Positions 2,832 through 13,987 of a stretch of DNA of 58,878 bases are shown piece by piece (position 1 is the stretch's first letter; each line of letters opens with the position of its first letter). Where the stretch lies: positions 1 to 58,878 of the forward strand of contig JACABD010000024.1 in NCBI GenBank assembly GCA_013377075.1, in the 5' to 3' direction. Under the pieces are notes generated by a model. That model had not been told where the DNA came from. It did not search any database and saw only the letters and a program-made list of their open reading frames with translations. The stretch is from Geobacteraceae bacterium. GTDB lineage: Bacteria > Desulfobacterota > Desulfuromonadia > Geobacterales > DSM-12255. Both the position numbers and the translations under genes were made by a program.

Positions 2832-4271
2832 TTAATCTTTTTTCAGCTCAATCCCCAGTTCGGCGATTTTCTTACGTAGCGTATTGCGGTTAATGCCAAG
2901 AATACTGGCGGCACGAACCTGGTTCCAGCGGGTTTTTTCGAGGAGGAACTTGATAAGCGGCCTCTCAACCTGCTCTATGACCATATTATAGAGCTCACCG
3001 CTCTCAAGTTTTTCCACATTCACAAAGGAGACCCTCAGCTTTCTGTCTACCAGAAATTCCAACGAGACATCGTCACCTGAAAGCGCAGCTCCGTCTGGTG
3101 CAGCCAGCACAGGAAAATCATCGACCGTGAGGAGCGGATCTGAAGAGAGAATAACCGCCCTCTTGATTGAGTTTTCAAGCTCCCGCACATTGCCCGGCCA
3201 TGAATTGGCAGAGAGCTTCTCCCGCGCTCTCTTATCGATCTGCTTCATCGGGATGTCAAGCTCAATGCAGGTCTTTTGCAGGAAATGATCGACAAGCAGC
3301 AGGATATCCTCACGCCGTTCCCTGAGCGGAAGAAGATTGATCGGAACGACATTAAGACGATAGTAGAGATCTTCCCTGAAAAGCCTCTGCTGGACCAGTT
3401 GCAACAAATCCTGGTTGGTGGCAGCAACAATCCTGACATCAACGGTTATGTTCTGACTGCCGCCGGTACGGGTCAGTTCGCGCTCCTGCAAGACCCTGAG
3501 TATCTTGGCCTGAAGATCAAGTGGCATATCGCCGATCTCGTCAAGAAAGATTGTGCCTCCGTTTGCCTGTTCGAACTTACCGAGCTTGCGCTCACCAGCT
3601 CCGGTGAAGGAGCCCTTTTCATGACCGAACAGCTCTGACTCAAGGAGCTCTTTGGGGATGGCGGCGCAGTTCATGGCAATGAAAGGTTTCACCAAACGCT
3701 TTGAGTTGTAGTGGATCGCTTTTGCAATCAGCTCCTTTCCGGTTCCAGACTCACCCTGGATCAGGACAGTCATGTCGCTTGGTGCGACCTTGCCAATGGT
3801 CTTGTAGGTTTCTCGCATTGCTGCGGAATTGCCTATTATTCCATTTTCAAGAAGATAGCGCTCTTTAAGCTCGTCTTTGAGGGTAGCCACCTGCATGGTC
3901 ATCTCCCGGGCCCGGTCTGCCTTCTCAATGATTGCGTCCATGACATCAAGGTCAAAGGGCTTTGTCAGGTAGTCGTAAGCCCCTCTCTTCATTGCCTCGA
4001 CAGCATTTTTCATCCCAGCTTCGGCGGTCATGATAACGACGAGCAGATCGTTTTTCAGCTCTCGGACTTTGTCCATGAGATCAAGGCCGGAAATGCCTGG
4101 CATCTTGATGTCAAGGATTGCCAGGTCGTAGCTCTCGCTCCTGATCAGACGCATAGCCTCCTCTCCGTCACGGGCAAGATCAACGGTAAAGCCCTTTTTG
4201 CGCAATGCCTTTGAAAGCACCCAGCGCATACTCTCTTCATCGTCAGCTACCAGAATCCTCTTTATTGACAT
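2832..4271 (-). CDS. ntrC: NtrC-type sigma-54-dependent response regulator
   Basis: 479-residue enhancer-binding activator. The receiver domain occupies residues 1-120, with phospho-acceptor Asp54 in LAILDIKMPG, an acidic pair at residues 10-11 and the conserved Lys104 in YLTKPFD. The central AAA+ domain has a Walker A GESGTGKE (173-180), the sigma-54 contact loop as GSFTGA (220-225, a Ser variant of GAFTGA) and a Walker B IFLDEI (241-246). A Fis-type helix-turn-helix occupies the last 45 residues (ASILGINRNTLRKK). The start at 4271 begins the receiver exactly and has GAGG upstream; the longer frame adds 15 non-homologous residues. It lies 7 bases after the paired kinase gene, and gene order dus-kinase-regulator matches the nifR3-ntrB-ntrC operon known from other proteobacteria. 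Assignment as NtrC itself is likely but inferred from that context. Confidence 0.85.
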   Translation of the reverse strand: MSIKRILVADDEESMRWVLSKALRKKGFTVDLARDGEEAMRLIRSESYDLAILDIKMPGISGLDLMDKVRELKNDLLVVIMTAEAGMKNAVEAMKRGAYDYLTKPFDLDVMDAIIEKADRAREMTMQVATLKDELKERYLLENGIIGNSAAMRETYKTIGKVAPSDMTVLIQGESGTGKELIAKAIHYNSKRLVKPFIAMNCAAIPKELLESELFGHEKGSFTGAGERKLGKFEQANGGTIFLDEIGDMPLDLQAKILRVLQERELTRTGGSQNITVDVRIVAATNQDLLQLVQQRLFREDLYYRLNVVPINLLPLRERREDILLLVDHFLQKTCIELDIPMKQIDKRAREKLSANSWPGNVRELENSIKRAVILSSDPLLTVDDFPVLAAPDGAALSGDDVSLEFLVDRKLRVSFVNVEKLESGELYNMVIEQVERPLIKFLLEKTRWNQVRAASILGINRNTLRKKIAELGIELKKD

Positions 4272-12912: not shown

Positions 12913-13761
12913 TCAGCCAATGGCAGCCTGAAACACCGGCACAACACGGTCATCTTCAACCATGACCTCATGGGCGCAATGTTCAATCAGTTCATACAGA
13001 TGAAGATACTTGGCAATTTCTGCCGCCTGTCCACATTTTCTGCCGTAATACTTACCCGGCTGGGAATAAACATCGGTGACACTTCTGTCGTCATAGACGG
13101 CAAAATCAAAGGAGCTGTTGGTATCACGTCCGCTGATGTCAATAGTTGGTGGCAACTCCTCACGAAACGCCAGTCGCACATCAATGTCGTCCTGTTGATG
13201 TGCAAGCAGCACCTTCTGAACATCCGTATCAAGCAACCCATCCCTGCTGGTAACAAAAATTCTGGTAATCTGCACCCCACGATCAAGAGCACGCAGGTTT
13301 GCCTGATAGAAATTAACCAAAGCACCTCGATTAAACCATCCGGACGTTAACGGTGAAACCGCCTTTATCTGACGGGTCGACTGATTACTGAGCCTGGCCC
13401 CCTCATGGTAAAACTCCATCTCATCTAGCGGGATATACCCCTCCTGTAGCAGACTGATACTCTTAAGGGTAGCGGCAACAAGTTCATCGGCCTTTGCCTT
13501 GCACTCACTGTCACTGATCTGCGCCAGAGCAAGGGGGATTTCGTGGACATGGCGAAATTGATCTGCCAAGTGAACCTTTGATTTTTCAATATCCTCCCTG
13601 ATCAGATATGTTACCAGAGACAGCAGAATGCCCAACGCAAATACCAGATAGGCGGCAACTTCGTTTTTCAGCACCATGTGAAAGAAAATCGCTAATCCCG
13701 AACCGACCAGAAACTCGATAAATACAGCCAGTTCGTGGATTTTTTTATTAATATTTAGCAT
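12913..13761 (-). CDS. Riboswitch-controlled membrane-anchored protein of unknown function
   Basis: 282 residues. Two adjacent hydrophobic segments (about residues 8-30 and 32-53) are followed by a soluble region of about 225 residues, probably cytoplasmic. The soluble part contains a helical linker (55-105) and an alpha/beta domain (about 110-270) with A-V-S-P, R-A-L-D-R-G-V-Q-I-T-R-I-F-V-T and F-D-F-A-V-Y-D-D-R-S-V. The last pieces recall phospholipase-D-like folds, but no HxK catalytic motif is present, so I do not assign an activity. The ATG at 13759-13761 is preferred over the longer frame because AGAGGAG lies upstream and the longer frame would run through the riboswitch terminator. Transcription should depend on the GEMM-type leader at 13817-13930. 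Confidence 0.7.
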   Translation of the reverse strand: MLNINKKIHELAVFIEFLVGSGLAIFFHMVLKNEVAAYLVFALGILLSLVTYLIREDIEKSKVHLADQFRHVHEIPLALAQISDSECKAKADELVAATLKSISLLQEGYIPLDEMEFYHEGARLSNQSTRQIKAVSPLTSGWFNRGALVNFYQANLRALDRGVQITRIFVTSRDGLLDTDVQKVLLAHQQDDIDVRLAFREELPPTIDISGRDTNSSFDFAVYDDRSVTDVYSQPGKYYGRKCGQAAEIAKYLHLYELIEHCAHEVMVEDDRVVPVFQAAIG

Positions 13762-13816
13762 CGACACTTCTCCTCTTTTATATCTATACAAGTTGCAATC
13801 TGTCTGAAGCAGCAAT

Positions 13817-13866
13817 AAAAAAAGCCGGGTTACCGGAATATCGCCTGATATTTCGGTAACCCGGCT
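13817..13866 (-). terminator. Riboswitch expression-platform terminator
   Basis: Twenty-base arms (13847-13866 and 13823-13842, one G/T mismatch) close on a four-base loop. On the minus strand seven T follow immediately. The 5' arm of this stem is the 3' strand of the riboswitch aptamer, so aptamer folding and termination are mutually exclusive. Confidence 0.9.
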
Positions 13867-13930
13867 GTCTCGTTGAGACCCTATGGGCTTCTGCCCCATC
13901 TTCACAGATGGTTTAGTATTGTCGTATATC
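13847..13930 (-). ncRNA. GEMM-I (probable GEMM-Ib, 3',3'-cGAMP) riboswitch aptamer
   Basis: Minus-strand leader RNA ahead of the 282-residue membrane protein. P1 is GATAT (13930-13926) with ATATC (13851-13847). Then comes A-A-T-A-C-T-A-A-A-C-C-A, and a six-pair hairpin CCATCT/AGATGG capped by a GTGA GNRA tetraloop (13911-13896). The G-C-A-G-A-A-G-C-C joining region follows, then a GTCTC/GAGAC stem (13879-13867) and finally A-G-C-C-G-G-G-T-T-A-C-C-G. These are the conserved blocks of the cyclic-di-GMP-I class. From memory, the CAATACTAAACC strand matches the Geobacter variants that prefer cyclic AMP-GMP. Its 3' strand also forms the terminator arm, so ligand binding should switch the gene on. 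The class call is strong; the ligand choice is inferred. Confidence 0.85.
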
Positions 13931-13957: not shown

Positions 13958-13987
13958 TTGATAACATCAACGCGACGGCAATGTCAA
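13958..13987 (-). promoter_or_regulatory. Candidate promoter of the riboswitch transcript
   Basis: On the minus strand a consensus TTGACA (13987-13982) and an 18-base spacer precede TATCAA (13963-13958). The predicted start lies near 13951, about 20 bases before the aptamer P1 stem. Confidence 0.45.

Follow-up and report, generated by a model that had tools for sequence, protein, structure and literature searches.

The cGAMP-riboswitch class was reportedly founded by two PNAS papers in 2015. The c-di-GMP-I riboswitch Vc2 has the same fold, GNRA tetraloop and conserved blocks as the element described here, which carries A versus G at position 20, and we take G20 of Vc2 to be the ligand-specificity position. 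The pilM switch of Geobacter metallireducens combines a GEMM-I aptamer for cGAMP with a mutually exclusive terminator, a G of which takes the ligand-pairing C; binding is lost at transcript 102, as C75 pairs with G102, and the switch follows ON logic (PMC9262584). The GEMM-Ib regulon of G. sulfurreducens comprises several GEMM elements, some of them in tandem, with Hypr GGDEF proteins in the same genome (PMC6456294, PMC8835794), and the pilMNOP genes, a published cGAMP-switch locus, are part of it (PMC6456294). The available portions of these two papers name no output gene resembling the one reported here.

We analysed a 58,878-nt stretch of DNA (the window) from a Geobacteraceae bacterium, in which an original prediction, made from the sequence letters, had placed a GEMM-type riboswitch, probably cGAMP-sensing, ahead of one gene. 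The search of Rfam GEMM models, which that prediction had proposed as a check, returned RF01051 (c-di-GMP-I) at 13927-13852, with 41.5 bits and an E value of 9.6e-5. The match covers the full length of the covariance model (positions 1-87) and exceeds its gathering score of 35 bits, which places the element in GEMM-I; it is the sole Rfam match at gathering score within the window. P1, the GTGA-capped hairpin, the 3' strand and the run of seven T were all found on the minus strand as predicted, and the downstream gene likewise has its start codon at 13761 and a stop ending at 12913. A complete riboswitch leader lies at 13930-13817 on the minus strand, with the following features in and around it.

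13958 to 13987, minus strand: candidate sigma-70 promoter, read by eye (TTGACA at 13987-13982, an 18-nt spacer, TATCAA at 13963-13958).
13847 to 13930, minus strand: GEMM-I aptamer including P1, from the RF01051 match and the P1 strands.
13930 to 13926 and 13851 to 13847, minus strand: the two strands of P1, GATAT and ATATC.
13917, minus strand: A at the ligand-specificity position, placed by the Infernal alignment on the model's unpaired G, position 11.
13896 to 13911, minus strand: P2 hairpin with a GTGA (GNRA) tetraloop, CCATCT-GTGA-AGATGG.
13866 to 13854, minus strand: aptamer 3' strand, AGCCGGGTTACCG.
13856, minus strand: C equivalent to C75, the Watson-Crick partner of the ligand; its partner in the terminator is G 13833 (register mapped by hand).
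13823 to 13866, minus strand: strong intrinsic terminator hairpin that cannot coexist with P1 or the aptamer 3' side (predicted fold; hairpin plus tail, -31.2 kcal/mol).
13817 to 13823, minus strand: terminator T run, 7 T.
13770 to 13774, minus strand: Shine-Dalgarno-like AGGAG, read by eye, 8 nt before the start codon.
12913 to 13761, minus strand: controlled gene; the predicted structure of its 282-aa product shows a pair of long N-terminal helices and, C-terminally, a PLD-like fold that lacks the HKD motif.

The 121-nt leader folded to -47.8 kcal/mol, compared with -25.5 ± 3.3 kcal/mol for shuffled sequences (z -6.8), none of 200 of which reached so low a value. The terminator with 20-base arms and seven T that was said to reuse the aptamer 3' strand is present in the minimum-energy fold, in which the arms at 13866-13847 and 13842-13823 form 19 pairs and one mismatch; the output of a consensus terminator scan of the window did not contain the 13866-13823 hairpin. 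The 5' arm of the terminator (13866-13847) takes in the 3' sides of both P3 and P1, together with the ligand-pairing C 13856. In the cGAMP riboswitch, it is C75 that forms the Watson-Crick pair with the ligand (PMC9262584, PMC6274999), and in our predicted fold its equivalent is captured by the terminator as the pair C 13856-G 13833. Minimum-energy folds of a growing transcript, computed in 4-nt steps with lengths counted from 13934, contained P1 from 88 nt up to 100 nt; in the 104-nt fold, its place had been taken by a partial terminator.

These predictions suggest how the switch would operate. RNA polymerase would start approximately 20 nt upstream of the aptamer, judging from the candidate promoter. 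Binding of cGAMP after completion of the aptamer, and before completion of the terminator, would hold P1 and C 13856 in the aptamer, so that the terminator is blocked and RNA polymerase can proceed into the gene at 12913-13761; in the unliganded state, the 13842-13823 arm would capture the 3' strand, and transcription would stop at the T run. Since bound aptamer and terminator exclude each other, ligand should mean ON, and the predicted capture of the strand with the ligand-pairing C, as in the published geometry of the G. metallireducens pilM switch (PMC9262584), argues by analogy for the direction originally proposed. A homologous aptamer can work the other way, with ligand promoting termination, as in Cd1 of C. 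difficile (PMC9262584). We regard an OFF switch of this kind as scarcely credible here, because the terminator requires the aptamer's own 3' strand (13866-13847) with its ligand-pairing C, and cannot coexist with the bound aptamer. We are thus strongly inclined to read the element as a transcriptional ON riboswitch of the GEMM-Ib (3',3'-cGAMP) subclass, in which ligand and direction are both inferred. It resembles the pilM switch of G. metallireducens in its GEMM-I aptamer for cGAMP, the mutual exclusion of aptamer and terminator, the terminator G that takes the ligand-pairing C, and the ON logic, here as predicted. Unlike the pilM switch, it controls a different gene, pilMNOP in this genome having its own paralogue of the element, and its ligand is deduced from sequence.

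The putative ligand was examined further through the bases expected to contact it. The base at 13917, the G20/A14 position, is A, as in GEMM-Ib, and A was found there in 26 of 26 aligned leaders and in all 27 rows of the alignment that holds the 7 paralogues. In the crystal numbering of the cGAMP riboswitch this position is A14, and the other ligand contacts are G8, A9, A11, A12, C15, G40, A41 and C75 (PMC6274999). By hand mapping, all eight are identical in the window element (G 13923, A 13922, A 13920, A 13919, C 13916, G 13891, A 13890 and C 13856). The element is a real riboswitch of the GEMM-Ib type, and a further example of this known class.

The genome from which the window derives (3.7 Mb in 126 contigs, 95.5% complete) contained eight RF01051 matches, and the GEMM-I elements had A at the specificity base in eight of eight cases. 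As in G. sulfurreducens, several GEMM elements, some in tandem, thus occur alongside Hypr GGDEF proteins, with eight GEMM-I elements found here versus 17 stated for G. sulfurreducens (PMC6456294, PMC8835794). One paralogue lies upstream of a 71-aa ORF that appears by eye to be helix-turn-helix-like, followed by pilM, pilN, pilO and pilP, at approximately 410 nt from the pilM start. Tandem pairs of A-type elements precede an RCC1-repeat protein (G000:C1:62461-62744) and a 64-aa protein (G000:C13:21515-21756), and single elements precede a 1494-aa MBG-domain protein (C39) and a 280-aa protein that, by eye, seems to carry a signal peptide (C76). The genome also gave 18 GGDEF matches in 17 proteins, three of them Hypr-like and 14 further. 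The Hypr signature is a Ser at 348 with GGDE[F/Y] (PMC6456294), and the Hypr variant GSU1937 has GGDDF (PMC8835794). The Hypr serine was present in L105 (GS/GGDEF), L107 (GS/GGDEY) and L114 (AS/GGDDF; serine read by eye), which makes these three proteins of the genome candidates for cGAMP synthesis. Two of the features mentioned are located as follows.

L120 4613 to 4828, minus strand: 71-aa helix-turn-helix-like ORF between a GEMM element and pilM.
G000:C116:72341-72649: L114, GGDEF protein with the variant GGDDF motif.

The specificity A, the eight contact bases, the pilMNOP paralogue and the three Hypr GGDEF proteins together support the cGAMP-type (GEMM-Ib) assignment that had been proposed, as far as a ligand can be read from sequence. 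We consider it improbable that a switch of the same architecture and ON logic, with this A-type aptamer, answers mainly c-di-GMP in the cell. The RF01051 family is named for c-di-GMP, cGAMP riboswitches can bind it (PMC9262584), and the omcST switch of G. sulfurreducens, which is not known to be A-type, answers both cGAMP and c-di-GMP (PMC6456294). Several predicted cGAMP-activated genes of G. metallireducens showed increased expression in a strain with raised c-di-GMP and lowered cGAMP (PMC12285248), and the 14 further GGDEF proteins in the present genome would also fit this reading. Against it, the specificity A is found in every GEMM-I element of the genome, which also encodes the Hypr candidates, and relatives carry G, so that the base is free to differ: in 16 of 16 RF01051 elements hand-picked from relatives' high-scoring matches, each read in register, the specificity base was G, a sample that is biased towards the family's G type and establishes no more than variation of this base within the order.

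Conservation of the leader was assessed across the alignment. All 26 aligned leaders had a TTGAC box within the 100 nt that precede them, compared with 2.48 expected from mononucleotide shuffles; a consensus promoter scan did not return the 13958-13987 site and reported a different one at 13970-13943. The aptamer helices were 95.2% paired over the aligned leaders, and the short P1 was paired in 81.7% of cells. For P1, the strands were read by eye for L010, L013, L014, L004, L005, L006 and L008 and by script for the remainder of 27 rows, of which L003 and L018 lacked a typical P1. For the aptamer helices, neither paired cells nor covariation score rose above those of column shuffles (reached by 305 and 287 of 500, respectively), whereas the number of cells with a two-sided change did (six, reached by 9 of 500 shuffles). 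Because helix covariation is weak in this set of closely related leaders, the identity of the aptamer is taken from the Rfam model. The terminator stem covaries: among the 13 pairs of its outer stem, 4 carried two-sided changes across 26 leaders, a count that none of 500 shuffles reached. Two of these four changes occur in the window's own leader, whose terminator has U-A and A-U where most other leaders show C-G and G-C.

The same comparisons bear on whether the locus could be a decayed GEMM element, its hairpin now a plain constitutive terminator or attenuator. The window element ranks seventh of the eight in its genome by Rfam score, its leader lacks one of the A residues that the other 25 leaders have after P2, and leaders before some homologues look decayed by eye. 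Such decay is nonetheless very unlikely in our view, given that the mapped contact bases are retained and that the window-specific terminator changes are two-sided, which argues that the stem is maintained.

The protein encoded by the controlled gene had no family above cut-off in Pfam or NCBIfam, and 4 of its 48 aligned relatives touched DUF6879 in searches against family models (best E 5e-4). A profile search of solved-structure sequences gave nothing convincing, with 2 sequences up to E 10 and a best E of 0.059. A structure predicted from the single sequence was set aside as a poor model (pLDDT 44.7). Prediction from 48 aligned sequences gave a mean pLDDT of 85.6 and a pTM of 0.67, and this model comprises two long N-terminal helices and an alpha/beta domain resembling the PLD-family fold. 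Residues ~105-268 of the model share the fold of the PLD-superfamily structures NucT (6ehi; Z 15.7), Nuc (1byr; Z 15.6) and TrmB/TrmBL2 (2f5t, 5box; Z 14.8 for TrmB), with Z scores of 14.8-15.7 and an rmsd of 2.3-3.0 over 124-140 residues at 9-12% identity; Foldseek E values went down to 1.4e-8, for TrmBL2. The matches to NucT and Nuc place the predicted domain among PLD-like folds. Unlike the PLD superfamily, the protein has long N-terminal helices and lacks the HxKxxxxD catalytic motif, which was found in none of the 48 aligned members; a classical PLD enzyme is therefore improbable, and the protein's role may be binding instead of cleavage. We read residues 4-80, the two N-terminal helices, by eye as a membrane hairpin or anchor in the model. 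The output of the switch is thus probably a membrane-anchored, non-catalytic PLD-like protein. More tentatively, and with somewhat less than even confidence, we suggest that cGAMP signalling in Geobacterales has this protein as a conserved main output, which would bind a phosphate-rich ligand or a partner at the membrane.

To see how regularly switch and gene occur together, homologous loci were collected. In a protein search, the controlled protein was found in 54 of the 141 genomes of the order, its own genome included. The best-scoring 29 homologous loci of the order besides the window's own were all scanned, and 25 of them had an aptamer upstream on the same strand. The four without one were L021, where two elements lie downstream of the gene, L028, L035, and L037, where the opposite strand carries one downstream of the gene. 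Searching named genomes yielded 59 loci, 57 with a readable gene start and 2 impossible to judge; an element within 400 nt upstream was detected in 34 of the 57 and not in the other 23, using the leader-built model R1, which derives from an automatic RNAalifold structure of the leaders and does not include P1. Since 25 of the 29 order loci recur among the 59 named loci, the two sets are not independent. Rfam at gathering score, applied to 16 of the 23 negative loci, likewise detected no element ahead of the gene. The 23 include all five Nitrosomonas loci; for L066, L070 and L073 there was no Rfam match up to E 1, an R1 scan gave one weak match among 8 loci (L066, 16.9 bits, E 0.055), and a predicted leader fold of the three sequences had one two-sided change in 39 pairs. 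By eye, these three loci share a common leader at ~3830-3970 that looks like a decayed GEMM element. At L082, L084 and L086, also by eye, a hairpin and then a T run precede the homologous gene, with no Rfam match upstream.

The pairing of switch and gene is common, strongest among the closest homologues and far from universal. CorA, PNPOx and the methyltransferase, encoded next to the controlled gene in the window, were searched for in the 59 named loci, with flanks of up to 4 kb and a positive control, and none was matched at E 1e-10; at 1e-5, two short PNPOx matches appeared (38 and 40 residues, E ~1e-6). The pairing is accordingly not simple synteny, the pair having been kept while its surroundings changed.

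What is new here is the frequent pairing of a GEMM-Ib-type switch with an unnamed protein family of PLD-like fold, which adds one output to a young second-messenger pathway. A limited literature search found no paper joining cGAMP riboswitch, phospholipase D and Geobacter, and we do not claim that the pairing is unpublished. Provided that our reading of the switch holds, cGAMP would control this unnamed family, whose members are probably membrane-bound, in many of the 54 genomes, the cGAMP regulon would extend beyond the metal-respiration genes of G. sulfurreducens, and the switch would offer a direct handle on the family's function. Should the protein indeed be a main output, cGAMP would also act on an envelope process outside the known cytochrome and pilus genes.

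Further GEMM elements, one or two per locus, were observed just downstream of the homologous gene at L021/L049, L025/L053, L026/L052, L027/L054, L029, L064, L069 and L097, those of L029 falling under the Rfam subtype RF03167 where one or two may be present. At L049, L053, L064 and L069, the next gene encodes a protein of 481-895 aa that appears lipoprotein-like by eye.
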